Source: Caldifarciminota bacterium
GTDB taxonomy: Bacteria > Hydrothermota > Hydrothermia > LBFQ01 > DSFT01
Reading direction: 5' to 3'
DNA length: 64,000 bases
NCBI GenBank assembly: GCA_025060695.1
Contig: JANXBH010000003.1
Coordinates: 1 to 64,000 of the forward strand
Part shown: positions 5,275-28,260 of the stretch, in pieces
How the letters are laid out: every line of letters begins with the position of its first letter
Numbering within the stretch: position 1 is the stretch's first letter
The notes under the pieces: generated by a model
What the model was told of the DNA's origin: nothing
Database searches by the model: none
What the model saw: the letters and a program-made list of their open reading frames with translations, nothing else
Translations under genes and position numbers: made by a program

Positions 5275-7252
5275 TCCACCTATATATTGCAATAGAGAAT
5301 ATTGTAATGACTATAAAAAGATAAATGGAAACCACAATAACGTTTATATAGTCGTTCACTATTACTCTATTTGCAATTTCAACGGAAGGAATATTTTGTG
5401 GTAAACTATTAGATGCTATTGCATTTTTAATATAGTTTGCATGTGAAAGAAATCCAATATCAGTATTAGGATGAAAAATCTTTTGCAGTGCTCCATAGGA
5501 TGTATTTAATACTACAAATAGCATAGGTATGCCAGTAATAAAAGCATATTTTATTTTTCCATTATTTATTAGATATGTCGTTGCAGTAATAAGTGCAAGG
5601 CTTGCAAGTAGCTGATTTGCTATACCAAATATGGGCCAAAATGTTCTAATACCTCCATATGGGTCTACAACACCTGCATATAGAAAATATCCCCAAAGCA
5701 TGACTGTAATAACTGTTGCAATAAATGAAGAGTAAAATGAAGAATAATTTGAAAGTGGTTTTATTAATCTTCCAAATAGGTCGTGAAATAAATACCTTCC
5801 TACCCTTGTCCCTGCATCTATTGTAGTTAAAATAAACAGTGCTTCAAAGAGTATTACAAAATGATAAAAAAATGCAATAAGATGCTTTCCAAATATATCC
5901 GAAAATATCAGTGCCATTCCTATTGCAAGGCTTGGTGCACCACCTGTTCTTGAAAGTATAGTCTTTTCTTCAATTGAAATAGCAAGACTTTGAATCTCTT
6001 CAGCTGTTATTTTAAATCCCCAAGAATTTATCTTATTTACCGCACTTTCTATTGTTTTCCCAATTTCAGAACTTGGTGAGTTTATAGCAAAGTATATACC
6101 CGGTTCCATAGTGACTGCTGCAATTAGTGCCATTACTGCTACAAAGGATTCCATTAACATACCTGTATATCCCACAAATCTTGCGTCAGTTTCCTTATCA
6201 AGCAATTTTGGAGTTGTCCCTGATGAAATTAATGAATGAAATCCAGATATTGCACCACAAGCAATAGTTATAAATAGAAAAGGAAATAAGTCCCCTTTCC
6301 ATACAGGACCACTTCCTTCAATAAATTGAGTAATTGCAGGCATTTTTATATCCGGAAGAGCAAATAATATACCAATTGCTAAAATTATTACTGTCCCAAT
6401 TTTTAAGAATGTGCTAAGATAGTCCCTTGGTGCTAAGAGTAGCCATATTGGCAAAATTGAAGCAATCGCACCATATAATATAATCCCAATAGCAATCTGA
6501 GTTTCTGAAAATGTAAAGAATTTAGATAAACTTGGGTCTATTGCAACATATCTTCCAAGTATAAGACTAACTATTAGTGCAATAATACCAAATATACTTG
6601 GACCTATTACTGAACCGGGTTTTATTTTCCACATCCAAACACCCATTATCATAGCAATTGGTATAGTCATAATAATTGTAAATGTTCCCCAAGGACTTTC
6701 AAAAAGTGCTTTTACTACAACAAGTGCTAATACTGCCATTAGTATAATTAAAATAGAGTAAATACCAATTAGAGCTAAAATTCCCGAAAATTTCCCAAGT
6801 TCATCTGAAATAATCTCTCCAAGAGACTTTGCATCTTTTCTTGTAGAAATTATTAAAATTACCATATCCTGAACTGCACCTGCAAGTATCACACCAAATA
6901 CTATCCACAAAGTAGATGGCAAATATCCCATCTGTGCTGCTAATACTGGTCCTACAAGCGGTCCTGCTCCACTTATTGCAGCAAAATGATGACCAAGCAC
7001 TACAAATTTATTAGTAGGGACAAAATCATATCCATTATTAAATTTATGTGCAGGTGTAATATTTTTATCATCCAATAAAAATACCTTATTTGCAATGAAC
7101 TTACTATAGTATCTATATCCTATATAATAACTTGAAAGAGCTAAGATTAAAACCCAAATTGCAGAAATTGTTTCACCTCTATATATTGCAAGGATAAAAA
7201 GCGATATAAATATTAATAGCGAAATTATTAGGGGGATAATAACTTTTTTCAT
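5243..7252 (-). CDS. cstA: CstA-family carbon-starvation transporter
   Basis: 669 residues with many transmembrane helices. CstA signatures are clear: GHHFAAISGAGPLVGPVLA near residue 87, GYLPSTLWIVFGVILAG with VQDMVIL just after it, and GFHSLISSGTTPK in the middle. Family members import peptides and/or pyruvate when carbon is limiting and sit in the inner membrane. It is shorter than E. coli CstA (about 700) but complete. The start overlaps the stop of the PorX-like gene by 4 nt, so both are read from the promoter at 8696-8707. This suggests that transport and the response regulator are co-expressed. Confidence 0.93.
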   Translation of the reverse strand: MKKVIIPLIISLLIFISLFILAIYRGETISAIWVLILALSSYYIGYRYYSKFIANKVFLLDDKNITPAHKFNNGYDFVPTNKFVVLGHHFAAISGAGPLVGPVLAAQMGYLPSTLWIVFGVILAGAVQDMVILIISTRKDAKSLGEIISDELGKFSGILALIGIYSILIILMAVLALVVVKALFESPWGTFTIIMTIPIAMIMGVWMWKIKPGSVIGPSIFGIIALIVSLILGRYVAIDPSLSKFFTFSETQIAIGIILYGAIASILPIWLLLAPRDYLSTFLKIGTVIILAIGILFALPDIKMPAITQFIEGSGPVWKGDLFPFLFITIACGAISGFHSLISSGTTPKLLDKETDARFVGYTGMLMESFVAVMALIAAVTMEPGIYFAINSPSSEIGKTIESAVNKINSWGFKITAEEIQSLAISIEEKTILSRTGGAPSLAIGMALIFSDIFGKHLIAFFYHFVILFEALFILTTIDAGTRVGRYLFHDLFGRLIKPLSNYSSFYSSFIATVITVMLWGYFLYAGVVDPYGGIRTFWPIFGIANQLLASLALITATTYLINNGKIKYAFITGIPMLFVVLNTSYGALQKIFHPNTDIGFLSHANYIKNAIASNSLPQNIPSVEIANRVIVNDYINVIVVSIYLFIVITIFSIAIYRWISKILSLLKF

Positions 7253-8691
7253 TTTCTTATTTTAAGTATAGGACATATAACTTCCTCAAGTGTAATGCCT
7301 CCATGCATAAAGTAGTTTTCATATTGCTTTGCAAATTTATGCTCTTCAGATTTATATACAAAAAATCCATAACCATCCGCTATACCAAATCTTTGTGAAA
7401 TCCTTGGAAGTCCATATTCTTCCAGCTCCTTAATTAAATATCCATCTTTACTCATAAATCTTAAACTATCACCAAATTTAAATCTTAAACCTTCAGTAAT
7501 ATCACTTCCTCCACTTATTGCAATTGGCTTTTTACCCACTATCCAACCATGGTCAGTAGTAATAAAAACTACATAATCTAAATTTAAGTATTTTTCAATA
7601 ACTTGGACGATTTTACTATCAATTAACATAACATTTAGCATCTTTATTATTGTATCTATGGATTTTATACTTTTTAAACTTTCAATATCCATCCTCTGGT
7701 GCAAAAATTCATCCAAAAAGTTTATAACGTTTATTTCAATATCTCTATTTAAAGGTATAATTTTTGAAACTTCCTCAAAATGATTTATTTTTAAAATTCT
7801 ATAACTACTTGAAATTTTATTTTCTCTTAAAAACTCATCAAAAAGTTCAATTTCATGAAGATTATTATTTAAGTAGTCTGGATGCCTTTTATAAATTTCT
7901 ATAGGTAATCTACCAGAAAATATTGAGTTTCTTGAAAATATAGTGGACGTTGGAATTATTGAATAGTAAAAGTCTATTTCAATATTAAATGAGCTTGGAA
8001 GTTCTTTGCTAAAAAGTAGCATCTGGTCAATTCTAAACGCATCTATTATGAATATAGAGACTTTTTGGTAATTTAAAAATTTATGCATAAACAAATTATG
8101 AGAGAATGTTTTATTTTTTAATAAACTTTTATAGTTCTCTATTAGCCACTTTGCAAACTTTTGGTTTTGACTTTCTATTTCCATATCTATAATTTCCCTA
8201 TCATTTTCATTTAGTTTTACCCTTGTCTCAAATAGAAGTTTTGCTTTTTTTATCCAATTTTCATAGCTATCCTCAATTGAGTTTATATAGCTATAAACTT
8301 CACTAAGTCCAATACCTAAAAATTTTCTCTTTATCTCCTCCTTTTTAATTTTATTAGAAATAGCAATAATCTGTGCTACGTTTACGGGTTTTATTATATA
8401 GTCATATACATCATTTCCCATCGCTTTTTCTATTATTTCCCTATCAGTTATCATAGTTAGCATAATTATGGGAATATTTGGCTTTATTGAATTTATAAGT
8501 TTTAAAGTTTCTATTCCATCTAAATGAGGCATTTTATAATCAAGCAAAATAAAATCATAAGTATTATTTTTTATTTTCTCTAATCCTTCTAACCCACTAC
8601 TTGCAATATCTACACTAAAACCTTCTTTTTCCAAAAGTTCTACTACTGACTTTAAGTCGTATATCTCATCATCTATCCATAAAATTCTCAT
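7249..8691 (-). CDS. porX: PorX-like response regulator with PglZ domain
   Basis: 480 residues from the chosen ATG. An ATG 19 codons upstream is also in frame, but the chosen start gives MRILWIDDEI, the normal receiver opening, and lies 7 nt after a TAAACT box. Residues 1-120 are a receiver domain with the phospho-acceptor Asp in FILLDYKMPHLDG. A helical linker follows, then a PglZ/alkaline-phosphatase-like domain with IDAFRIDQML, the nucleophile region STIFSRNSIFSGRLP, TTDHGWIVG and a terminal HGGITLEEVI. In Bacteroidetes PorX controls and interacts with the type IX secretion system and hydrolyses signalling nucleotides. No PorY kinase or T9SS core gene is in this window. Confidence 0.88.
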   Translation of the reverse strand: MRILWIDDEIYDLKSVVELLEKEGFSVDIASSGLEGLEKIKNNTYDFILLDYKMPHLDGIETLKLINSIKPNIPIIMLTMITDREIIEKAMGNDVYDYIIKPVNVAQIIAISNKIKKEEIKRKFLGIGLSEVYSYINSIEDSYENWIKKAKLLFETRVKLNENDREIIDMEIESQNQKFAKWLIENYKSLLKNKTFSHNLFMHKFLNYQKVSIFIIDAFRIDQMLLFSKELPSSFNIEIDFYYSIIPTSTIFSRNSIFSGRLPIEIYKRHPDYLNNNLHEIELFDEFLRENKISSSYRILKINHFEEVSKIIPLNRDIEINVINFLDEFLHQRMDIESLKSIKSIDTIIKMLNVMLIDSKIVQVIEKYLNLDYVVFITTDHGWIVGKKPIAISGGSDITEGLRFKFGDSLRFMSKDGYLIKELEEYGLPRISQRFGIADGYGFFVYKSEEHKFAKQYENYFMHGGITLEEVICPILKIRK

Positions 8692-8695
8692 TTTT

Positions 8696-8707
8696 AAAAG
8701 TTTAAAG
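8696..8707 (-). promoter_or_regulatory. Leaderless-type promoter for porX-cstA
   Basis: On the minus strand the element reads ctttaaactttt followed by aaaa and ATG. The TAAACT core ends 7 nt before the start codon at 8691, and no Shine-Dalgarno is present. The remaining divergent gap to comM (8708-8830) carries a tandem gtttagaat repeat at about 8799-8818 that could contain the comM -10 (TAGAAT). The comM promoter is not otherwise obvious. Confidence 0.6.
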
Positions 8708-8830
8708 TCATGATTTAAAATTTTGGTTTGAAAATAGTTCCTGCACATGTTTCAAAGTAGGAACTATTAATAAAAACAACTAAATCACTTTTGTTTAGAA
8801 TCTGTTTAGAATAATCCCTATCTATTCAAC

Positions 8831-16608: not shown

Positions 16609-18402
16609 ATGATACTTATTTTACTAAGTATATCCGAGCCAATAAAAGTGCTAAATATTGTAGATTACATAGCTTATGATTATGAAGCTGCTTTAAATAA
16701 TCAAGAAGAATACAAGGAAATGCTTGAATTTTCAGAAAATCTTCTAAAACTTTCCGATAGTTCCATAATGGATTATTCAAAAACGCTATACGAACTTATA
16801 AGAAAAAAAGCAAGTGTAAATGAAATAAAAGATATTACAGCAAAAATCAGAAATATTATCTTATCTAATCCTAACTTTGATATATATCCAAGAGGAAGCA
16901 TTTCACTAAAAAGAGGAAAAGAAATTTATTTAAATAATTGTTCTGTCTGTCATGGAGAAAAAGGATATGGAGATGGACCGATTAGTAATACCTTAGAACC
17001 AAGACCTACAAATTTTCATCAAAGAAACGACCTTAGTGCACTGAGAGTATATGTAGTATTAAATACAGGTCTTGTGAACATGCCTCCATTTAATAATTTA
17101 TCCGAAAGCGATAAATGGAATACTGCATTTTATGTATTATCACTAATTCATGAAAATAAGAAAGTAAAAAAAGTTAAGGATACTTTAAGTTTAGCTCTGC
17201 TTTCAAAACTTTCTGATAATGATTTATTAAATATGGGATATAATCAAAATGAAATTTCATATATTAGAACATATGTTGAAGAATTTTCAAAAAAGGACTA
17301 TTTTTCATCCTTGATAAACAATCTTGAACTTATAAAAAGCTTATACAATAACAAAGAATATGAAAAGGCATATTCATTATCTGTAAGTATATACTTTGAT
17401 GATTTTGAACCTATTGAAAAACAGCTAATTTCAAAGGATTTTAACTTTGCGATGAATTTAGAACAAAAATTTACTCAACTTAGAGCACTTGTAAAAGAGA
17501 AAAATAAAACAAAAGAAGTAGAAAATTTAATTTCAAGTATAAAGATGGATTTACTAAAAGCAAAGGATTTAGTGGATAAAAAAATATTTTCGGGTTATTG
17601 GGCATTTTTCAATTCTTTTACTATAATATTTAGAGAAGGACTTGAAGTTGCAATACTCCTTGGAATAATATTAAGTATAGTAAGTTTAAGCCAAAATAGA
17701 ACTGCAATAAAACTAGTTCATTTTGGCTGGATAAGTGCTATAATTCTCGGTATTATAACATTTCTAATATCGCAGTTTGTAATAAACATTACCACACTAT
17801 CAAGAGAGGTTATTGAAGCAATAGTAGGATTACTTGCAGCAATTGTCTTATTTCAAGTTTCATATTGGTTAATAAGTAAAGCTGAAAGTAAAGTATGGAT
17901 AAATTATATTAAAGAAAAACTAAAAACATCACTAAGTAAAGGAAAACTCACATTTGTATTTTTCTTAAGTTTCTTAGCGACATATAGAGAAGCCTTCGAA
18001 ACAGTGCTATTTTATCAAGCAATGTTAATTAATACTGAAAAGTCTAGCATAAACACTATAATTTTGGGGTTTATAATAGGTCTAATAGTTGTAGTTCTAA
18101 TAGCAATTGGAATTATAAAACTTCAGCTTAAATTACCTTTAAAATATCTATTTCCTATAACAGGTTCAGCATTATATTTACTTTCGTTTATATTCTTAGG
18201 TCAATCAATAAGAAGTTTTCAAGAAGCAATTATTATCCCTACTACCCATTTAGAATTCATTCCACTTATAGATTTTCTTGGAATATATCCTACACTTGAA
18301 ACAACTATAGCACAAGTTATACTTATAGTTTTAGCACTTTTGTTAGTTATAGTAATTAAGAGGAAAGTCAAAAAAGAGGAAATTACTTTACAGAAAACTT
18401 AA
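16609..18402 (+). CDS. Cytochrome c - FTR1 iron permease fusion
   Basis: 597 residues. Residues ~1-90 are a helical periplasmic region after a short signal-like start. Residues ~100-180 form a class I cytochrome c with haem motif CSVCH (111-115) and a likely Met ligand in NMPPF (Met158). A helical region to ~325 follows, then an FTR1/EfeU membrane domain with REGLE (342-346) and a second motif TYREAFET near 456. FTR1 REXLE glutamates conduct iron across the membrane, usually coupled to ferrous oxidation; here the fused haem domain may take the electron. Some bacteria have such fusions. The 3' end overlaps the convergent KhtT-like gene by 15 bp. Confidence 0.9.
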   Translation: MILILLSISEPIKVLNIVDYIAYDYEAALNNQEEYKEMLEFSENLLKLSDSSIMDYSKTLYELIRKKASVNEIKDITAKIRNIILSNPNFDIYPRGSISLKRGKEIYLNNCSVCHGEKGYGDGPISNTLEPRPTNFHQRNDLSALRVYVVLNTGLVNMPPFNNLSESDKWNTAFYVLSLIHENKKVKKVKDTLSLALLSKLSDNDLLNMGYNQNEISYIRTYVEEFSKKDYFSSLINNLELIKSLYNNKEYEKAYSLSVSIYFDDFEPIEKQLISKDFNFAMNLEQKFTQLRALVKEKNKTKEVENLISSIKMDLLKAKDLVDKKIFSGYWAFFNSFTIIFREGLEVAILLGIILSIVSLSQNRTAIKLVHFGWISAIILGIITFLISQFVINITTLSREVIEAIVGLLAAIVLFQVSYWLISKAESKVWINYIKEKLKTSLSKGKLTFVFFLSFLATYREAFETVLFYQAMLINTEKSSINTIILGFIIGLIVVVLIAIGIIKLQLKLPLKYLFPITGSALYLLSFIFLGQSIRSFQEAIIIPTTHLEFIPLIDFLGIYPTLETTIAQVILIVLALLLVIVIKRKVKKEEITLQKT

Positions 18403-18873
18403 ATTTTTTAAATAAACCTTTGCTTTTTCTATATTTTCAATAGAACCAAGTAAAACTAAAACATCGTCTTTTAAAACTTTTTCAGAAGGTTGGGGCATGA
18501 CTATTGAAATTTCGTTTCTTATTATTGCTATTATATAAGTTTGGGTAAGCGTTCTAAACTTTATCTCTTCAATAGTTTTATTTATTGACTTAAAGTTTTC
18601 TTCAATTTTAACAGTTTCAATCGCTATATTTCTAAAAATTACATCTATTCGTTTTTCAAGGAAATCCTTTAAAAAAACTCCTGAAAGTATTATAGCCAAT
18701 TGATCAGATTCGTCCTCATTTAACTTTATAGTACCAATAGTTTCACCATTTCTTAAGAAATATATTTCTTTATATCCAGAAAAGTAATCAATCAGGACAA
18801 AACTATTTCCACTCTCGGTAGTAAAATCGTATCTTCTTCCAATAGAGGGTAAATCAATTGTTTTTATTTTCAT
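18388..18873 (-). CDS. KhtT-like regulatory subunit with RCK_C domain
   Basis: 161 residues. The opening DLPSIGRRYDFTTESGNSF matches the N-terminal segment of KhtT-type proteins, and the C-terminal half (about 85-160) is a TrkA-C/RCK_C domain (YIIAIIRNEISIVMPQP, then LVLLGSIENIEKAKVYL). KhtT regulates the K+/H+ antiporter KhtU, but no antiporter gene is next to it, so the partner may be elsewhere or different. It is the last gene of the carotenoid/DNA-repair operon and overlaps the UV endonuclease gene by 20 nt. Its inclusion in a photoprotection operon is unexplained. Confidence 0.75.
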   Translation of the reverse strand: MKIKTIDLPSIGRRYDFTTESGNSFVLIDYFSGYKEIYFLRNGETIGTIKLNEDESDQLAIILSGVFLKDFLEKRIDVIFRNIAIETVKIEENFKSINKTIEEIKFRTLTQTYIIAIIRNEISIVMPQPSEKVLKDDVLVLLGSIENIEKAKVYLKNLSFL

Positions 18874-19726
18874 TTAAGTAATCTAAAATTTTATAGCAAG
18901 ATTTTTCTTTCATTTTTACTTCAGGCATAAGGTCAATAGTTATATTTTTGTTTTTAAATAATTTCAAAAACTCCTCAAGATCAGAAATTTCAAGATAATC
19001 ACTATGTTCGTATTTTTTCCTGCCTTGACTAGAAATGTGAAACTTTGGTATTCTTTTTCCCCAAGTTTCTATAACTTCAGATATGTCAAAGTCAGATGGA
19101 TTAAGCCTATGATGGAAAAAATCGAAAACTACTGGAAGGTTGGTATATTTAGAAATTTCCAATACATCCCTAACTGTATATATCTTATCGTCATTTTCAA
19201 TTGCAAGTCTTCTTTTTAAAAAACTATAATTTTCAATAGTATTTATAAAATTATCAATTGACTTTTGTTTATTTTCATACTTTCCACCTATATGAATAAT
19301 AATGATAGAATTTTCATCTAAGTCTAAGCTGTCTAAAATAAAAAAGTGATACATAAGCTCTTTTATAGAGTTTTCTACTACTTGTCTTTTTGGTGAGTTT
19401 AGTATTACAAATTGTGGAGGATGCATAGTTAGTCTTATGTTAAAACTTTTAATATAATTACTTTGCGATTTTAATATATCTTCAACTTCGTATTTCCACT
19501 TGTCTTTAAATTTCCTATGAGAAAAGAATGGGACAAGATAACTACCTATTCTAAAGATTTCAAAGTGAGATAACTTTGAAAATTCTAATAATTTTCTCAA
19601 GTCTTCTAAGTTCTTTAAAAATGTATTTATGACATTTTCATAGCTTAAATTCTCTAATCTAAATCTTCTATTTGTAGTAAGAGAGTTATCCGAAAGAGAA
19701 CAAAATATTCCTATTCTTACTTTCAT
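18854..19726 (-). CDS. uvsE: UV-damage endonuclease (UVDE family)
   Basis: 290 residues, family length. The TIM-barrel metal-site motifs are present in order: LTMHPPQFVILNSP, IIHIGGKYENK, RLAIENDDK, VVFDFFHHRL and KFHISSQGR. UVDE cuts 5' of cyclobutane dimers and 6-4 photoproducts and starts an alternative excision repair. The gene overlaps the methyltransferase by 4 nt upstream and the KhtT-like gene by 20 nt downstream. It therefore belongs to one transcript with a photolyase and carotenoid enzymes, which makes a UV-defence role for the whole operon likely. Confidence 0.92.
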   Translation of the reverse strand: MKVRIGIFCSLSDNSLTTNRRFRLENLSYENVINTFLKNLEDLRKLLEFSKLSHFEIFRIGSYLVPFFSHRKFKDKWKYEVEDILKSQSNYIKSFNIRLTMHPPQFVILNSPKRQVVENSIKELMYHFFILDSLDLDENSIIIIHIGGKYENKQKSIDNFINTIENYSFLKRRLAIENDDKIYTVRDVLEISKYTNLPVVFDFFHHRLNPSDFDISEVIETWGKRIPKFHISSQGRKKYEHSDYLEISDLEEFLKLFKNKNITIDLMPEVKMKEKSCYKILDYLNENKNN

Positions 19727-20553
19727 TTTTTTACAACTATCGTAAGAATGTCATCGGAAAATGTATAAATTGGATAAAGTAAAAACATAAATATTGTCCA
19801 TCTTATAAAGTTTTCTTCATTTGGCTTAAATAGTGTTAGACCATATAGAATATACTTTGAATAACTTGAGAAGTTTGAATATTTCAGGATTTTAAATCTT
19901 TGTAAAACAGTAAAAAGACCTTTCTTTGAAAAAACTACGAAGTGTCTTGGAGTATGCAAACCTGCCCACTTGTCTTTAAATATGCTAAAGCCAAATGACG
20001 GAAATTTCGGAGTTTCTATTATAAATATACCACCAGTTTTTAACAACTCATATACCTTATCTACTATAATTCTTGGATTTTCCTCATGCTCTAAGTAATG
20101 ATAAGCTGTAATTATATCAAACTTATATGGAATGCTATCCAAATTGTCAAAAATTTCAATATCTTTTCTTAACTTTACTATGTCAAAGCCAAAGATATTA
20201 GAACTATAATTTTTTAAACCAATTAAAAAGCTTCCATCTCCGCATCCAAGGTCAAGTATGAATTTATTTTCTAAACTTGTAAATTTTTTAATGTAATTAA
20301 TTCTTCTTTTTACCACGTTTTGCATTTCAAACTCTACGAACTTGTAGTATTTGCCCCAAGTTCTCCTCATATCAAATAGTGGATAGTCTTTACTATATAG
20401 CATCTTTAGTTCCTCTATAGAAAAACTTGCTTCTAAGTTAAGACTTTTACAATCTTTGCATATGTAGAAGTTAAAGTTTCCAAGCTCTATTAGCTGAGAT
20501 TTTGAAGTAATATAAAAATCTAAATTTTTACTGTTGCAAGCTCTACAATTCAC
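19723..20553 (-). CDS. Class I SAM methyltransferase with N-terminal zinc ribbon
   Basis: 276 residues. The first ~40 residues carry two CxxC pairs (CRAC and CKDC), a likely zinc ribbon. The Rossmann domain follows with FILDLGCGDGSFLIGL as motif I, TAYHYLEHEENP as the post-motif loop and GGIFIIETPKFPSFG. The C-terminal ~50 residues include a hydrophobic segment (WTIFMFLLYPIYTF). The architecture resembles Methyltransf_23-type enzymes that modify sugars or lipids. Because it follows crtB-cruF-crtI and the photolyase in the same operon, methylation of a carotenoid hydroxyl is a testable idea, but the sequence alone does not show the substrate. Confidence 0.75.
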   Translation of the reverse strand: MNCRACNSKNLDFYITSKSQLIELGNFNFYICKDCKSLNLEASFSIEELKMLYSKDYPLFDMRRTWGKYYKFVEFEMQNVVKRRINYIKKFTSLENKFILDLGCGDGSFLIGLKNYSSNIFGFDIVKLRKDIEIFDNLDSIPYKFDIITAYHYLEHEENPRIIVDKVYELLKTGGIFIIETPKFPSFGFSIFKDKWAGLHTPRHFVVFSKKGLFTVLQRFKILKYSNFSSYSKYILYGLTLFKPNEENFIRWTIFMFLLYPIYTFSDDILTIVVKK

Positions 20554-21809
20554 AACCTTAGATATTCTCTTACCTTTTTTATATAGTTTTCTCTACTTTC
20601 TATAAAATCTACAATGGGCTTTACATGACTCTTATAGTCAGGTATGTATTTTTCTATATATTTAAAGTCTTTATCAAACTTTTCTCTTTGAAGTTCCGGA
20701 TTAAATATTCTAAAATATCCGCTTTTGTCTAATCCAAACCCTCCAGTCCACTGCCAATTTCCAACATTTGCACTCAAGTCCGCATCTACAAGATTTTCAT
20801 AAAACCACCTCTCTCCAAGTCTCCAGTCTATCATTAAATTTTTTATTAAAAAACTTGCACATATCATCCTTACTCTATTGTGAATATAACCTTCCTCTAA
20901 AAGTTGTCGCATACCTGCATCTACAATCAAATATCCCGTATTACCTTCTTTCCACCTATTAAACTTTTCTTCATCTATTTGCCAAGGAAAATTTCTCCAT
21001 CTTTTATCGTATTCTAAATTTACACAATCTTGATTATAATATAGCCATAGTCTATAAAACTCCGCCCAAGCAATTTCACTTTTAAATTTTTCATCTTCAC
21101 TATTTAAAAGCACATATCTATATGAAATCTGTCCCATTCTAAAGTATACAGAAAGCCTTGAAGTTCCATCTATAGCTGGATAATCCCTATTTTTTTCATA
21201 ATCTTTCATTTTCTCCATCTTAAATTTATGAAAATGCGAAAGTACTTCATTCTCACTTTTAAAATATAGCCTTATTATCTTTTCATTTTCAATAACTGGA
21301 AGTTCTATTTCTTCTACTTTTATATCTGGTGTAGTTAAGTATTTTGGTTTTGAAATTACATTTTCAAAATTATAGTTTTTAAAAAGTTTCTTGTAAAATT
21401 GACTAAAGCTCTGAAAATAAAAATTTTCAAAGTTTGGTTCTATTAAAAACTGATAGACTTTTTCTATTTTTACATTATGTTTTTTGCATATTTGTTCTAT
21501 GTATCTTACTCTTTCATTAGTTCTTGGTTCGCTATCATAGCAAATTCTAACAACATCAGGCTTTGAAACATAGATAAACTTTTCAAAATCCTCAAGCTTA
21601 ATCTTATACAATTTGCTATTTAACTTTTTTAACTCTTCATCAAAGCTTCTTACAACTTTAAAAAATAAGCTCTTTAAATTTTTACCATGCTCCTTTTGAT
21701 TATATTCATCAAAGAGAAAAAGAGGAATAATTTCATTTTCCTCATATCCTAAAAAAAGTTTATTATCTAACAGCCTAAAGTCCCTTGAGAATATACTTAC
21801 TATACGCAT
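20550..21809 (-). CDS. phrB: Deoxyribodipyrimidine photolyase (class I CPD type)
   Basis: 419 residues. The N-terminal antenna-type Rossmann domain begins IVSIFSRDFRLLDN. The C-terminal FAD domain has the family stretch HNRVRMICASFLIKNL, then DWRLGERWFYENLVDADL and GNWQWTGGFGLD. The enzyme splits cyclobutane pyrimidine dimers using blue light and FADH-. It is slightly shorter than typical (about 450-480). The start overlaps the end of crtB by 35 nt, a large overlap, but the ATG gives the expected N-terminus. It lies in the seven-gene photoprotection operon. Confidence 0.94.
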   Translation of the reverse strand: MRIVSIFSRDFRLLDNKLFLGYEENEIIPLFLFDEYNQKEHGKNLKSLFFKVVRSFDEELKKLNSKLYKIKLEDFEKFIYVSKPDVVRICYDSEPRTNERVRYIEQICKKHNVKIEKVYQFLIEPNFENFYFQSFSQFYKKLFKNYNFENVISKPKYLTTPDIKVEEIELPVIENEKIIRLYFKSENEVLSHFHKFKMEKMKDYEKNRDYPAIDGTSRLSVYFRMGQISYRYVLLNSEDEKFKSEIAWAEFYRLWLYYNQDCVNLEYDKRWRNFPWQIDEEKFNRWKEGNTGYLIVDAGMRQLLEEGYIHNRVRMICASFLIKNLMIDWRLGERWFYENLVDADLSANVGNWQWTGGFGLDKSGYFRIFNPELQREKFDKDFKYIEKYIPDYKSHVKPIVDFIESRENYIKKVREYLRL

Positions 21810-23049
21810 ATCTCTTCAACCTCCTATATCTCATTTCAAAAAATAAATTGATTAAGAACTTTGGTATAAATCCTCTATATGAAAAAATTTCAATAATCTT
21901 ACCATCATAAAATCTATGAACATGAAAAAAACCCAAGAAGCTATCACACAATTCATTACTATTAAAATCTAAAATGTATAGTTTCAATGAAATTTTAAAA
22001 ATACCAAATTCTATTTTAAAATCAATAATCTTTTCACTTTCTATTTTACTATCCTTTAAAGTTAGCTTTCCGAATGGTAAATTTACATTTGCATTTTTAA
22101 AATCACTATGAAATTCTACTATTTTGCCCTTATCTAAATCCAAAACTTCGTAGAATTTAAAGTATCTATACCCATTCATTTTCTTTAAGACTGACTTTCT
22201 AATATGATATCCTCCTAACTTTGAAATTATTTTAAATACTCTATTTACATAAGCTCGCTTTTTAAAATTATCGTACTTATTAAACCTAATTGCATTTAAT
22301 ATTTCAAGATACCAAGTCCCTGCACTTAAAATTGCATCCCTTACTTCTTTTCTTAAGTATTTCACATATCCTACAGTTTGATGATACAAACTTTCAGCTA
22401 TTTCCATTAAAAATTCCAACATATCCACATAATTAGGCGTAATAATTTCATTTTTAATTTGAAACTCCTTAATTCCAAATTCATTTAATATGCTTTTTGG
22501 AATATATACCCTTTTCCTTAATTTATAGTCCTCACCCACATCCCTCAATATATTTACAATTTGCATGAATATACCATAATTATACGCTTTTTCTTTAATA
22601 TCTTCTTCTGTATCAGAAATAATAGGAATTAGCATAGCTCCGACCGAGCCTGCAACAAGCTTTGAATACTCAAAAAGGTCATGCATATTTTCTATTACTT
22701 TACCCTCAATATCCCACAAAGCACCCTTTAATAATTCTAAAAACGGTCCAATATCAAATCTATATAAACTAAATGTATCTTTAAGCGCTAAAAAAACATA
22801 CTCATTACCTTTATATTTATTTTCATAGGAACTAAGCAGCTTATCTTGAATTTCATATATTCTTGAAATTGAAGATTTTCTATCATTCTTAATAAAAAAC
22901 TCATCAGCAATATTGTCTACTAACCTGCAATATGCATATATGCTCCAAAAGTGCTTTCTTAAATCAATGGGTAAGTTAAGACTTGCAAGATAAAAAGTTC
23001 TTGCATTTTGCTTCATTATTTCTTCACATTTTCTAAAATATTCTACCAT
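21775..23049 (-). CDS. crtB: Phytoene/squalene synthase family protein with C-terminal extension
   Basis: 424 residues. Residues ~1-285 are a prenyl synthase of the CrtB type with both aspartate motifs: LVDNIADE near 43-50 and NILRDVGEDYKLRKRVYIP near 165-185. It should condense two GGPP into 15-cis-phytoene. Residues ~290-424 are an extra domain not found in ordinary CrtB (about 300 aa). It is rich in strands (LPFGKLTLKD, IDFKIEFGIFKISLKLYIL, GFFHVHRFYDGKII) and ends with a basic amphipathic stretch. The position between cruF and the photolyase supports carotenoid rather than squalene synthesis. Confidence 0.9.
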   Translation of the reverse strand: MVEYFRKCEEIMKQNARTFYLASLNLPIDLRKHFWSIYAYCRLVDNIADEFFIKNDRKSSISRIYEIQDKLLSSYENKYKGNEYVFLALKDTFSLYRFDIGPFLELLKGALWDIEGKVIENMHDLFEYSKLVAGSVGAMLIPIISDTEEDIKEKAYNYGIFMQIVNILRDVGEDYKLRKRVYIPKSILNEFGIKEFQIKNEIITPNYVDMLEFLMEIAESLYHQTVGYVKYLRKEVRDAILSAGTWYLEILNAIRFNKYDNFKKRAYVNRVFKIISKLGGYHIRKSVLKKMNGYRYFKFYEVLDLDKGKIVEFHSDFKNANVNLPFGKLTLKDSKIESEKIIDFKIEFGIFKISLKLYILDFNSNELCDSFLGFFHVHRFYDGKIIEIFSYRGFIPKFLINLFFEMRYRRLKRYAYSKYILKGL

Positions 23050-23831
23050 AGCTTCACACTTCTAATCCTTGAGAGTATTATCACAATCATTATGCCGTTT
23101 AAACCAAGCAAAAATGCAAAAGCTCCTCCTCCAATAAGCGACATTACTATAGGAAAACCTACAATAAGAACATATAAATAAAATACATAACCTGTATACT
23201 TTTCATTTTTATATTCAGGTCTATCTAAAATATAAAATAGAAAGTTAATGATAAACAAAGTAAAAAGCCATCCTGCCCAATTTACTATTGGCATATCGTA
23301 AAAGAAACCCTTTTCTTGCCATACCCAAAATGGATATACTTTTGTCATTGCATAATCTAATGACAAATCCCAAAAGAAAGCAAATATCGTAGAAACTAAA
23401 ACAAGATAATAACCACTATATAGTAGTCTTTTTGAGATTATATAGGATAGAACTACTATGGAAAACCAAGAAGGAGGAATGAGATATGGCACTTCATTCA
23501 GTATTTTTGGACCAAGCAAATCAGTATACTTATAGTACCCAAAAGGAAAGCCATTATATGTAGAAGATAATTCCATAATAAGTGAGACCGAAACTGAAAT
23601 CAGGAATATTAAAATATTTCTTTCAAAACCAAGTGCATATATACCAATTAAAAATGCACAAATAATGGTAAGAAAAGTAAATCCAATAGAACCTAAGCTA
23701 ATAAAAAACGGAATAAAATTAGATATATTAGTAGTATATTCAGGAAAGTTTCTTAAAATAAAAAGACCAAGCAAACTAAATATTCCAACAATAAGAGATA
23801 TAAAAAAAGTTATTTTAATAAGAAATTTCAT
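23043..23831 (-). CDS. cruF: CruF-type carotenoid 1,2-hydratase (DUF422)
   Basis: 262 residues, polytopic membrane protein. The DUF422/CruF blocks are visible: NGFPFGYYKYTDLLGP, EVPYLIPPSWFSI, FFWDLSLDYAMTKVYPFWVW and PIVNWAGWLF. CruF adds water to the psi-end of acyclic carotenoids, giving 1-hydroxy-1,2-dihydro ends as in Deinococcus. It is placed between crtI and crtB, overlapping the former by 17 nt and the latter by 7 nt. No lycopene cyclase, C50 elongase or CruG glycosyltransferase is in the locus, so an acyclic hydroxylated product is predicted. Confidence 0.9.
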   Translation of the reverse strand: MKFLIKITFFISLIVGIFSLLGLFILRNFPEYTTNISNFIPFFISLGSIGFTFLTIICAFLIGIYALGFERNILIFLISVSVSLIMELSSTYNGFPFGYYKYTDLLGPKILNEVPYLIPPSWFSIVVLSYIISKRLLYSGYYLVLVSTIFAFFWDLSLDYAMTKVYPFWVWQEKGFFYDMPIVNWAGWLFTLFIINFLFYILDRPEYKNEKYTGYVFYLYVLIVGFPIVMSLIGGGAFAFLLGLNGIMIVIILSRIRSVKLW

Positions 23832-25248
23832 AAAAATCCCTTTTTACTCTTTCTAATAGTAATTTAGATGATATAAGAACCATAGGAATACCACTTCCAG
23901 GTATTGTAGATGCACCTACGTAGTATATACCTTTAGTTTCATAGTTCTTCGGTCTAAAATACGCACTTTGTAAAAATTTATGCGAAAGACCAAAAGCTGA
24001 ACCATAGTCTAAATTATACAAAATTTTCCAGTTTTCTGGCAATCTATATATCATTTCCCTTATTCTTTCTCTTTTGAAGTCAGTTTCAATTTCCAATCTA
24101 TCTAAAACTTTGTTTATAATTTCTTTTAACTTTTTGGAAATATCCTCTTTTGAAATTTTTAAGTTTGGTACAGGAATTAGAATATATATATTTTCTGAAT
24201 TCTTCGGAGAAAGTGAGTTATCAGTTTTGCTTGAAATGTTTACATAAAAAGACGGTTCGTTTGGAACTTTTCCATATCTAAATATCTCATCAAATGAAAG
24301 TTTATAATCTTTTGCAAAAAACACATTATGATGTAGCATATTAGTTTTTCCCTCATACAGAATATATAGCATAATAGTTGAGCAAGAATATTCATAGTTA
24401 TCTGTATTCTTTTTTAATAGTTCTCTTCTTGCATATGGTAAGTCTGCATTTAAAACTATTACATTTGCATTAAATGAATCTCTATTTGTATATACTACTT
24501 TATTTTTTTCGTCTATTTCATTAACTTCAATTTCTTTTAATATTTTAACTCCAAGCTTATTACACATTTTTTCCAATGCTTCAACTAATTTATACATGCC
24601 TCCCATTGGAAAGTAAATTCCTTCTACAGTTTCCATATAGTTTATAACCGTATATACAAATGGTGCGGAAAATGGAGAAATACCAAGATACATAGATTGA
24701 AAACTATTTGCATATACAAGTCTATAGTCATCAAAATAACTCTTTACTCTTTTATATAAATTTGAAAGCATTTTATGTCTTAACAATGCCCTTATGTTTT
24801 TTATATTTATAAAATCAAAAACTGAATAAAAATTTCTTTCTACAAAATTGTCTATCGTATCTATATACATTGATGTAATATCGGAATAGAACCTTAAAAG
24901 ATTAGAAAAGTCTTTTTTTGAAATTTGACTAATATAGTAAGACAAATTTAGTGAAGGTTCAAGTCTTTTTCCATCTTGATAATAGATTCTATATAGTGGG
25001 TCTATAAGCTTTAAATCTAAATAGTCTTCAATTTTCTCATTCAATTCATTAAAAAGTTCCTTTAATGGTTTTAGCATTAGAAGTAAGGTTGGACCTGTAT
25101 CAAAATAATACCCATCCTTTTTTATATAACCTACTCTACCTCCTATAGTTTCATTTTTTTCTAAAACCAAAACATCGTATCCTAATTTTCTAAGTCTTAA
25201 AGCACTTGCAAGACCACCAATTCCTGAACCAATCACTATTGCTTTCAT
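23815..25248 (-). CDS. crtI: Phytoene desaturase (CrtI family)
   Basis: 477 residues from ATG 25248. An in-frame TTG lies two codons upstream, but the ATG is preferred because the TAAACT box then lies 8 nt away. The FAD-binding Rossmann motif opens the protein (VIGSGIGGLASALRLRKLGY, EKNETIGGRVG). FDTGPTLLLM and the C-terminal GIYYVGASTIPGSGIPMVL are characteristic of CrtI-type desaturases. It removes hydrogens from phytoene to give lycopene or a similar polyene. It is the first gene of the operon that continues through cruF, crtB, phrB, a methyltransferase, uvsE and a KhtT-like gene. Confidence 0.94.
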   Translation of the reverse strand: MKAIVIGSGIGGLASALRLRKLGYDVLVLEKNETIGGRVGYIKKDGYYFDTGPTLLLMLKPLKELFNELNEKIEDYLDLKLIDPLYRIYYQDGKRLEPSLNLSYYISQISKKDFSNLLRFYSDITSMYIDTIDNFVERNFYSVFDFINIKNIRALLRHKMLSNLYKRVKSYFDDYRLVYANSFQSMYLGISPFSAPFVYTVINYMETVEGIYFPMGGMYKLVEALEKMCNKLGVKILKEIEVNEIDEKNKVVYTNRDSFNANVIVLNADLPYARRELLKKNTDNYEYSCSTIMLYILYEGKTNMLHHNVFFAKDYKLSFDEIFRYGKVPNEPSFYVNISSKTDNSLSPKNSENIYILIPVPNLKISKEDISKKLKEIINKVLDRLEIETDFKRERIREMIYRLPENWKILYNLDYGSAFGLSHKFLQSAYFRPKNYETKGIYYVGASTIPGSGIPMVLISSKLLLERVKRDFYEISY

Positions 25249-25253
25249 AGTCA

Positions 25254-25322
25254 AAAAGTTTAAAGGATTTTTCCAATTTATTTTTTTTATTGTTTTTTTC
25301 TATTTTTTCGCTTTAAAATTTT
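25254..25322. promoter_or_regulatory. Divergent control region of the photoprotection locus
   Basis: The 78-bp gap 25249-25326 separates crtI (-) from the MerR/B12 regulator (+). Minus element: ctttaaactttt (25265-25254), TAAACT 8 nt before the crtI ATG. Plus element: ctttaaaatttt (25311-25322), TAAAAT 7 nt before ATG 25327. Between them is a T-rich tract without an obvious long inverted repeat. It is the natural place for regulator binding. Confidence 0.6.
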
Positions 25323-25326
25323 GAAA

Positions 25327-26172
25327 ATGTATTACAAAACGAAAGAAATTGCAAAAATACTTGGTGTAAGTGAAGGAACTATTAAAAATTGGTCAAGAAA
25401 AAATTTAATACAATCTCATAGAACCATTGGCGGGCACAGGAGATTTTCTCTATTAGATGTAATAAAATTTATAAAAGAGAACAATATTAAGGATATTGCA
25501 GGTTTTTATAAAATTAAATTAGATATTCTAAACTACATTCTAAAAGAAGACTATCAAAATTTGTCTGATATTTTATTAACGTATATTTTAAGGGAGGAAG
25601 CTAATGAAGTTGAAGATTTTCTGAAAATACTTTTGTTTTCAATTGGTATATATAAAACATTTGATATTATTGTAAGTAGAAGCTTAAATAAGCTTGGTAA
25701 ATTTTCGGAAGCGAGGAAAATAGGAATAGATGAAGAACACATAGCATCTTCAAAATTAATTGAAGCCATTATCAATTTAAAAAATATATTCAAATCTAAA
25801 AAAAATATAAATACTAAAGTAATACTCTCCTCGCTTGAAGGAGATATCCATGAAATACCACTTAGAATATTGGATTTTATTCTAAATTACGAAGGATTTA
25901 AGGTTATATATGTAGGTATAAATACTCCGTATGAGGAAATATTAAAGACCATAAAAAGAGAAAAGCCAAAATTTTTAGTAATTTCTTCAGTCTTTGTATT
26001 AGATAGAAGAAAATTTGAAAAGTCCATAAAATTTCTCGAAGAAAGCTGTGAAGAGATATCCTGCATACTACTTATAGGAGGTCCTATATATGGAGAAAAA
26101 CCAAAGATAGAAAAGAAGATATATACAACTTATGAGCAATTGATAAATGATATAAAAAGGAGGAAAAAATGA
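25327..26172 (+). CDS. MerR-type regulator with B12-binding domain (CarH/LitR-like)
   Basis: 281 residues from ATG 25327, with a TTG two codons upstream as the alternative start. Residues 1-65 are a MerR winged helix (KTKEIAKILGVSEGTIKNWSRK, IGGHRRFSLLDVIKFI). About 75-150 is the B12-binding cap with DEEHIAS. About 160-280 is the cobalamin-binding Rossmann domain with GDIHEIPLRI (candidate lower-ligand His), followed by VIYVGINTPYEEI and LVISSVFV. CarH uses adenosylcobalamin as a light sensor to repress carotenoid genes, and this gene faces a carotenoid/photolyase operon. However, the Trp of the W-x9-EH photoreceptor motif is replaced (Ser at that place), so light sensing by the CarH mechanism is not assured. 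Confidence 0.85.
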   Translation: MYYKTKEIAKILGVSEGTIKNWSRKNLIQSHRTIGGHRRFSLLDVIKFIKENNIKDIAGFYKIKLDILNYILKEDYQNLSDILLTYILREEANEVEDFLKILLFSIGIYKTFDIIVSRSLNKLGKFSEARKIGIDEEHIASSKLIEAIINLKNIFKSKKNINTKVILSSLEGDIHEIPLRILDFILNYEGFKVIYVGINTPYEEILKTIKREKPKFLVISSVFVLDRRKFEKSIKFLEESCEEISCILLIGGPIYGEKPKIEKKIYTTYEQLINDIKRRKK

Positions 26173-27047
26173 GAATATTAGTTTTTGGAGGAACTGGTTT
26201 TGTAGGAAAGGCTATAGTCAAAAAGCTTATAGAATACAACTATAAACCTATACTTTTTGCAAGGAAATCTTCTATAAATAAACTACCGAGGGAGTATATA
26301 GATAAGAGTGAAGTGATATTTGGAGATGCAAAAGAATTAGATAATTACGAAAATGAGATATCAAATAAAAAACCTGATGCAGTAATATATCTAATTGGTT
26401 TAATAAGAGAATTTCCAAGCAAAGGAATAACATTTATGGATTATCATTATAATTGGCTAAAGAAAGTAGTTGATATATCAGTTAAATTGAATATAAAAAG
26501 ATTTATACTTATGAGTGCAAATGGTGTAAAAAAGGATGGAACCACTTATCAAAGAACAAAATATATGGGGGAAGAATATTTAAAAAGTACTAATTTAAAT
26601 TGGACAATTTTTAGACCAAGTATTATAATTGACGACGATGAATTATTCAACTTTAAAAAACTCATATTAGAACTTTCTAAAACTATATTCTTTCCAATAT
26701 TTTCTACTGGAAAATATAAAGTTAGTCCTGTCCATAGAGAAGATGTAGCGGAGATATTCGTAAGGTCAATAAACATTGAGAAAACATACAATAGAACTTT
26801 TGAAGTTTGCGGTTTAAGGGAATATACCTATCTTGAGCTTGTAAAGGAAATTACTAAGAGAAATAGAAGATTTATAATTCCAGTGTTTATTCCAAGTTTT
26901 ATTATCTTACCAATATCAAGAATTTTCAGATATGTAGAGTTTTTTCCAGCATCAGACGAACAGATAAAAATGCTATTGGAAGGGAATACTTGTAAAGATA
27001 AAACTATTTGGGAAATTCTAAATATAAATCCAAGAGATGCTATTTGA
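26169..27047 (+). CDS. NAD(P)-binding SDR / NDUFA9-like epimerase
   Basis: 292 residues. Atypical or extended SDR: GGTGFVGKAIVKKL at residues 7-20 binds the dinucleotide. DAVIYLIGLIREFP, RFILMSANGV and TTYQRTKYMGEEYL (YxxxK-like) follow, with HREDVAEIFVRSI later. The pattern fits NDUFA9/39-kDa-like proteins and related hydroxysteroid or epimerase-type enzymes. It overlaps the regulator gene by 4 nt and the isoprenoid kinase gene by 11 nt, so it is read with them. A redox role in carotenoid or quinone chemistry is possible but not shown. Confidence 0.75.
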   Translation: MRILVFGGTGFVGKAIVKKLIEYNYKPILFARKSSINKLPREYIDKSEVIFGDAKELDNYENEISNKKPDAVIYLIGLIREFPSKGITFMDYHYNWLKKVVDISVKLNIKRFILMSANGVKKDGTTYQRTKYMGEEYLKSTNLNWTIFRPSIIIDDDELFNFKKLILELSKTIFFPIFSTGKYKVSPVHREDVAEIFVRSINIEKTYNRTFEVCGLREYTYLELVKEITKRNRRFIIPVFIPSFIILPISRIFRYVEFFPASDEQIKMLLEGNTCKDKTIWEILNINPRDAI

Positions 27048-28260
27048 AGTTTTAACAGTTTTATATATTTTACTCTCAATATTCTTAGTCCAGATTATTA
27101 AGGATGAATTCATTTCAAGGAAAATTCTTCATATTCTTATTTCCATAGGTATTATTATCTCAAGTTATTTTATTTCAAAAACAAGTATGATAGTTCTATG
27201 TGCTACATTTGTTGTTTTCAATTTAATTCTAAATATTTTAAAACTAACGAAATACGACGAAAAGGGAAATTTTGGAACAATCCTCTATCCACTTGCAGTT
27301 TTAATTTCTACGATAATTTATTATGAAGATAAGAATTACTACTTTTTATCACTATTTGCTATGTTTTTTTCTGATCCAATTAGTGCTATCCTGGGAAGAA
27401 AGATAAATAAATATAACATTGAGGGAAAAACCTTAATTGGAAGCTCTACATTTTTTTTATTAACTTTCCTATTTTCCTTTCTTTCTACAAAAAATATACT
27501 ATTTTCCTTATCTTTTTCACTTTTCCTAACAGCTGTTGAATTTATACTAAAAAGAGGTTTAGACAATTTATTTATAGTGCTTTTTGCGATAGTTTTATTG
27601 AATGTAAGGCTCGAAAACTTTGCTATTGCTATGTTTTTTGGAATTTTAATTTCTATAATATCGTATAGACTAAATTGGTTAGATCTAAATGGTTCAATTG
27701 GGACATTTATTATAGGTAGCATAATTTTATATTCAGGAGGATTTAATTGGGTTCTTCCATTATTACTATTTTTGGTCTTAGGTTCAATTCTATCTAAGCT
27801 AAATGATAAAAAAACTAAGAGAAATTTAGCTCAAGTTTTGGCAAACGGTGGAGTTAGTCTAATTTTAAGTATTTTAAACATATTTTATCCAAACGATATA
27901 TTCTACTTCATCCATCTTTGCGTAATTAGTGCAATGAGTAGTGATACATTTTCTACTGAAATTGGTATGAAGTTTTCAAAAAAAGCATACTTAATTACTA
28001 ATTTCAAAGAAGTAGAAAAGGGGACTTCTGGTGGAATTAGTTTTATTGGATTTATTGGAGGAATTATTGGAAGTTTTATAATCTCCATATTTCATCCGCT
28101 TTGGTTCTATATTTTTATTATAGGAATAGTTGGAAATTTGTTTGATTCTATAATTGGTGCAACATTGGAAAGAAATTTTATATTAAGCAATAATATGACC
28201 AACTTTATAAGTTCTTCATTTTCTTCAGTTTTAGGATTTTTAGTAGCTTTAAAATTTTGA
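27037..28260 (+). CDS. Fused VTE5-like isoprenol kinase and VTE6-like (DUF92) kinase
   Basis: 407 residues, polytopic. The N-terminal half (about 1-190) resembles SEC59/VTE5 CTP-dependent kinases: SRKILHILIS, FSDPISAILGRKINKYNIEGKTLIGS. The C-terminal half (about 205-407) is a DUF92/TMEM19 domain: GSIGTFIIGSIILYSGG, AMSSDTFSTEIGMKFSK, KGTSGGISFIGFIGG. In plants VTE5 phosphorylates phytol and VTE6 (DUF92) phosphorylates phytyl-phosphate, together making the diphosphate. A single protein with both domains beside crt genes suggests salvage of geranylgeraniol-type alcohols into the GGPP pool. Its end carries the next gene's promoter element. Confidence 0.82.
   Translation: MLFEVLTVLYILLSIFLVQIIKDEFISRKILHILISIGIIISSYFISKTSMIVLCATFVVFNLILNILKLTKYDEKGNFGTILYPLAVLISTIIYYEDKNYYFLSLFAMFFSDPISAILGRKINKYNIEGKTLIGSSTFFLLTFLFSFLSTKNILFSLSFSLFLTAVEFILKRGLDNLFIVLFAIVLLNVRLENFAIAMFFGILISIISYRLNWLDLNGSIGTFIIGSIILYSGGFNWVLPLLLFLVLGSILSKLNDKKTKRNLAQVLANGGVSLILSILNIFYPNDIFYFIHLCVISAMSSDTFSTEIGMKFSKKAYLITNFKEVEKGTSGGISFIGFIGGIIGSFIISIFHPLWFYIFIIGIVGNLFDSIIGATLERNFILSNNMTNFISSSFSSVLGFLVALKF
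28247..28258 (+). promoter_or_regulatory. Promoter element inside the end of the DUF92 gene
   Basis: ctttaaaatttt lies within the last codons of the fused kinase gene. TAAAAT ends 11 nt before the GTG at 28267, longer than the usual 7. No Shine-Dalgarno is present. Confidence 0.4.

Follow-up and report, generated by a model that had tools for sequence, protein, structure and literature searches.

Gene content of the locus

The window, the entire 64,000-nucleotide stretch of DNA analysed here (contig JANXBH010000003.1 of a Caldifarciminota bacterium), contains two runs of genes that leave a common divergent gap: leftward, on the reverse strand, crtI-cruF-crtB-phr-methyltransferase-uvsE-khtT, and rightward, on the forward strand, a regulator gene, an SDR gene and a VTE5/6-like fusion. 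An ORF check of the window recovered all ten open reading frames with the positions, strands and limits assigned in the first-pass annotation, and the family names given there were backed by Pfam and NCBIfam matches.

The pigment genes lie closest to the gap. The first of these, crtI (23815-25254, reverse strand), encodes a 479-residue member of the phytoene desaturase family (TIGR02734, E = 1.1e-119), with TTG at 25254 and ATG at 25248 as alternative start codons, and it is followed by cruF (23043-23831, reverse strand), the 262-residue product of which belongs to the carotenoid 1,2-hydratase family (Caroten_synth/CruF; PF04240, E = 1.8e-35). The product of crtB (21775-23049, reverse strand) comprises a phytoene synthase in residues 1-270 (PF00494, SQS_PSY, matched over residues 13-270; E = 1.8e-53) and a C-terminal extension of approximately 150 residues (window 21775-22240) for which neither a Pfam match above cut-off nor a PDB sequence match was found; the AlphaFold model of CrtB including this extension has a pLDDT of 38, too low to be informative. 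The locus contains no cyclase gene.

Next in the run is phr (20550-21809, reverse strand), encoding a DNA photolyase of 419 residues (PF03441, FAD_binding_7; E = 1.7e-59) with a near full-length match to the photolyase 2E0I. Beyond it are a gene for a class I methyltransferase (19723-20553, reverse strand; Methyltransf_23, PF13489, E = 5.5e-15) with an N-terminal zinc-ribbon-like CxxC..CxxC arrangement, and uvsE (18854-19726, reverse strand), for a UV damage endonuclease of 290 residues (UvdE/UvsE, E = 1.2e-53; TIGR00629, above cut-off, E = 5.5e-50) that aligns nearly end to end with the UvsE structure 2J6V (E = 3.3e-45). The run closes with a khtT-like gene (TrkA_C/KhtT; 18388-18873, reverse strand), the product of which matches Bacillus subtilis KhtT (7AGV) over nearly its full length (E = 1.2e-17). 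Converging on khtT with an overlap of 15 bp is a gene for a cytochrome c domain fused to an FTR1 iron permease (16609-18402); elsewhere in the window, at 7249-8748, a response-regulator receiver is fused to a PglZ domain.

On the rightward side, the regulator gene (25321-26172, forward strand) is followed by that of an NDUFA9-like SDR of 292 residues (26169-27047, forward strand), which matches the SDR encoded after carH-ldrP in Thermus thermophilus with 32% identity (E = 1e-37), and by the fusion gene (27037-28260, forward strand; 407 residues). The latter had been identified as a VTE5-VTE6 fusion; its C-terminal half is recognized as DUF92 (VTE6-like; PF01940, E = 2.7e-43), whereas the VTE5-like assignment of the N-terminal half comes from motif reading only, this half having no Pfam match even at an E value of 5.

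Each leftward gene does overlap the next, by 17, 7, 35, 4, 4 and 20 bp in order from crtI, but the feature is not specific to the locus: 26 of the 39 same-strand neighbours in the window overlap, as do nine of its ten convergent neighbours. Overlap is thus usual throughout the window, and it was rejected as the sign of a special operon. The divergent gap measures 78 bp (25249-25326), as first annotated, if the ATG starts are used, but 66 bp (25255-25320) with the TTG starts; the divergent gaps of the window range from 22 to 357 bp.

The regulator and its presumed target

The regulator joins a MerR-type HTH (HTH_17) to a four-helix/Rossmann cobalamin-binding domain, the architecture of CarH (class I LitR) and of CtMerR. 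A CarH photoreceptor binds AdoCbl, is a tetramer in the dark and leaves its DNA when lit. Its best PDB sequence match, spanning both the DNA-binding and cobalamin domains, is CtMerR (8JBS, E = 3.7e-19), and a Foldseek search with its AlphaFold model (of moderate quality, with a pLDDT of 66 overall and below 50 for residues 126-135) ranked CarH and CtMerR structures at the top. The corrinoid-binding motif D/ExHx2G/P...SxT/V...GG with its lower-ligand His is present, as DIHEIP at position 175 with SxV (SSV) and GG at allowed spacing, and a direct motif test found EH at 139-140, GxxH and GxxxP to be retained. The Wx9EH (GxxW) light signature at the adenosyl group is broken: Ser129 (TCG, codon 25705-25707) replaces the Trp, a call made from one codon of a single metagenome consensus set against four comparator sequences.

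This Trp is treated as crucial for CarH photoreception (PMC9304148, PMC11796333). Among myxobacterial proteins, it is the complete Wx9EH that tells CarH apart from CarA, a B12-independent protein in which EH and the B12 motif are retained (PMC9304148). CtMerR, a verified photoreceptor despite its divergent DNA-binding domain, binds AdoCbl, and green light turns its tetramer into monomers (PMC11796333). The gap likewise shows no operator of the CarH kind. No TnnACA motif was found on either strand of 25231-25340, so that the tandem 11-bp nnnnTnnACAn repeats of a CarH operator are missing, and no match to the sigma-70 consensus, nor any recognizable promoter, was found in the divergent gap; the divergent DNA-binding domain of the regulator may direct it to another operator site. 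The anatomy of the protein fits the regulator of a CarH cluster, yet with Ser129 for the Trp it lacks a defining feature of the CarH photoreceptors, and with no TnnACA in the gap it cannot be classed among them from sequence. The cobalamin-dependent light control put forward in the first-pass annotation is accordingly not established for this regulator.

An ordinary AdoCbl photoreceptor of the CarH type, working as the standard B12 light switch, nevertheless has some claim, though we think it rather unlikely. Ser129 would then be tolerated, with Phe128 perhaps filling the pocket, or would be a consensus error; TGG to TCG takes a single base change, the remaining corrinoid-binding motifs are all kept, and CtMerR too departs from CarH in having no bis-His light state (PMC11796333). 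Against such a reading stand the presence of the Trp in all four comparators (the homologue at locus L018 of a Bacteroidetes MAG, Thermus CarH, a Rhizobium plasmid homologue and CtMerR) and the fact that its loss marks the B12-independent CarA in myxobacteria (PMC9304148).

CarH-like cobalamin-binding proteins of about 350-370 residues were also noticed in other genomes of the phylum (L151, 7112-13000; L152, 1-5101; L154, 4085-8892; L155, 5053-13065). These carry an intact GxxW-x9-EH and lower-ligand motif with no recognized DNA-binding domain, and the gene that follows each encodes a MacB/FtsX-type permease; an ABC ATPase, an HlyD-like gene and a RudS-like DUF523-DUF1722 gene are among the neighbours, as are uvsE in L151 and L152 and a photolyase-family gene in L155. 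Possibly, these proteins are B12 light sensors coupled to an ABC transporter.

Distribution among relatives and extent of the cluster

CruF, UvdE, the FAD_binding_7 photolyase, SQS_PSY and the full-length regulator each occur in single copy in the assembly (1.497 Mb in 77 contigs), and all five lie within 10 kb. By a rough estimate, independent placement would bring them together with a probability of about 1e-8; the clustering exceeds chance. It was compared with 147 genomes of the phylum, two named-genome matches and plasmid records, the organism itself being represented by one assembly. CruF was found in 18 of the 147 genomes and, within the class, in this genome only; its class relatives all lack CruF, and none carries a FAD_binding_7 photolyase that is intact. 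Outside the class, the stretches examined around CruF in this phylum yielded no regulator, photolyase or uvsE homologue, and the CrtI proteins near it are only 27-33% identical to that of the window; the CrtI of the Bacteroidetes locus L018, which also has a CarH-like gene, is 45% identical.

That the class relatives are without CruF and an intact photolyase might suggest a chance or assembly-made collection of genes, on a chimaeric or contaminant contig. We regard this as highly improbable, given that the SDR, fusion, KhtT and methyltransferase encoded on the contig have 60-73% identical orthologues in a genome of the same genus (G001), that the composition of the locus is the same as that of the rest of the window, and that five single-copy families fall within 10 kb.

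The same-genus genome preserves parts of the locus. In G001 the fusion follows the SDR (L103; 64 and 72% identity, respectively), and an intact methyltransferase gene (60% identity) comes immediately behind a stub encoding the final 55 residues of a photolyase (L104). Its uvsE, at a separate location (L077), survives as pieces in different frames with stops, and neither phytoene synthase nor CruF was found in searches of this genome, which is 86% complete. At that completeness absence alone is weak evidence; it is the relics of photolyase and uvsE that make a real loss likely. No full-length regulator was found in G001, although the contig breaks off shortly before the SDR and synteny could not reveal one there; a partial match (C94), considered as a decayed regulator, was rejected, being the gene for a small B12-binding subunit. 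With the SDR-fusion pair and the methyltransferase retained, but the photolyase and uvsE reduced to relics, G001 suggests that loss of light protection can occur as a block. After the methyltransferase beside the photolyase stub, at 1826-3013 of L104, is a gene for an FAD-dependent CrtI-like oxidoreductase of 395 residues.

The two outermost genes of the locus have a different distribution. Searches with the fusion matched it, in whole or as one half, in a further 26 genomes of the class, all lacking CruF, and gave no match among plasmids; in G002 it comes after an SDR of another type, YfcH-like as read from the translation. It is probably a class-wide gene linked to an SDR and not specific to photoprotection. 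Orthologues of KhtT occur in G001, G002 and G003 (73, 41 and 39% identity, respectively), all three of which are without cruF and crtB. In G002 the orthologue is followed by a Na+/H+ exchanger gene; the corresponding search for a KhtTU antiporter in the window found no Pfam-recognized exchanger among the flanking genes scanned beside khtT. The khtT gene is probably a core gene of the family that stands at the end of the leftward run, outside the module. Relatives lacking cruF still carry the fusion and khtT, and both are therefore taken as lineage genes that flank the cluster.

These data bear on the earlier proposal that one master switch governs all of 18388-28260, isoprenoid salvage and KhtT included. 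The proposal draws on the arrangement of all the genes in two contiguous, overlapping divergent runs, but overlaps are typical of the entire window and the fusion and KhtT persist in relatives without cruF. Moreover, the genome encodes IspH, an MEP-pathway enzyme, and two polyprenyl synthases; salvage is therefore unnecessary for pigment precursors, and it was rejected as the sole source of GGPP. Membership of salvage and KhtT in the unit is thus not borne out, and we judge a switch of this reach to be unlikely.

Proposed function and known systems

The core of the locus, comprising crtI, cruF, crtB, phr, the methyltransferase gene, uvsE, the regulator and the SDR, looks like a light-response cluster of the CarH/LitR type, in which such a regulator is linked to carotenoid and photolyase genes. 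Given its gene content and order, single copies, homology and a parallel arrangement in Thermus, we consider it probable that this is a compact light/UV-protection cluster of that known type, with both divergent units putatively repressed by the regulator until light or light stress. The regulator would occupy the divergent gap and, in darkness or in unstressed cells, repress the crtI-to-uvsE genes as well as itself and the SDR; a light-derived signal (light or light stress) would then release it. Derepression would lead to an acyclic hydroxylated carotenoid through CrtI, CrtB and CruF, and to two independent routes of UV repair, photoreversal and UVDE incision. The regulator keeps the corrinoid-binding motif but not the Trp, which in CarH makes contact with the adenosyl group; its light step may for that reason rely on a modified response to cobalamin or, as in CarA, be independent of B12 and answer to a different input.

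More speculatively, the protein may be a Trp-less, cobalamin-domain repressor of the CtMerR type whose sensing of light or UV stress does not go through the AdoCbl photolysis of CarH but through a different corrinoid or a B12-independent partner, having arisen separately from Myxococcus CarA; it would drive an operon for pigment and two UV-repair pathways from an operator unlike that of CarH. For the light/UV-protection cluster as a whole, what stands of the single photoprotection switch first suggested is the placing of a CarH/LitR-like regulator opposite genes for pigment and UV repair, with a parallel in Thermus and, in part, in the Bacteroidetes MAG; the VTE5/6-like fusion and KhtT are probably bystanders.

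The closest parallel is on pTT27 of T. thermophilus HB27, where carH is divergent from crtB-phr, ldrP and an NDUFA9-type SDR gene come after carH, and uvsE is close by. Both loci thus have a MerR/B12-domain regulator that faces crtB-phr, an NDUFA9-type SDR downstream of it and uvsE at the locus; identities to the Thermus proteins are 35% for UvsE, 32% for CrtB and the SDR, 28% for Phr and 23% for the regulator. The Thermus cluster, which the LdrP paper cited in PMC11417400 calls light-inducible in its title, differs in having LdrP, a P450, a lycopene-cyclase-domain protein and a CarH with Wx9EH. Its uvsE is a separate unit that adjoins the carH units and does not lie inside them, and no cruF, khtT or VTE5/6-like fusion is annotated in the 20.8-kb stretch. 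A CarH-type regulator grouped with UVDE, photolyase and carotenoid genes is therefore not new, contrary to the initial view that UVDE and photolyase in such a unit were unusual; recurrence of the CarH-crt-phr-uvsE-SDR association of Thermus in an unrelated uncultured lineage supports its being a functional unit. A partial parallel is found in the Bacteroidetes MAG WY5.bin159 (L018), where a CarH-like gene, an SDR, crtI, crtB and a photolyase are linked in a collinear row; here, all the genes are on one strand, the SDR is of the YfcH type, folE and a CrtZ-like gene are present, no uvsE was seen and the sensor Trp is intact.

With regard to the regulator itself, CtMerR of Chloracidobacterium thermophilum (8JBS/8JBT) has a similar HTH and likewise no bis-His ligand position, but it has the GxxW Trp and a verified response to green light where the window protein has Ser. 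Myxococcus CarA shares with the window regulator the retention of EH and the B12-binding motif and the missing Trp (PMC9304148), but differs in its CarH-type RxWERRY DNA-binding helix and its specialized partner proteins, and no orthology is claimed. The regulator offers a natural test of whether B12 photosensing outside the myxobacteria depends on the Wx9EH Trp.
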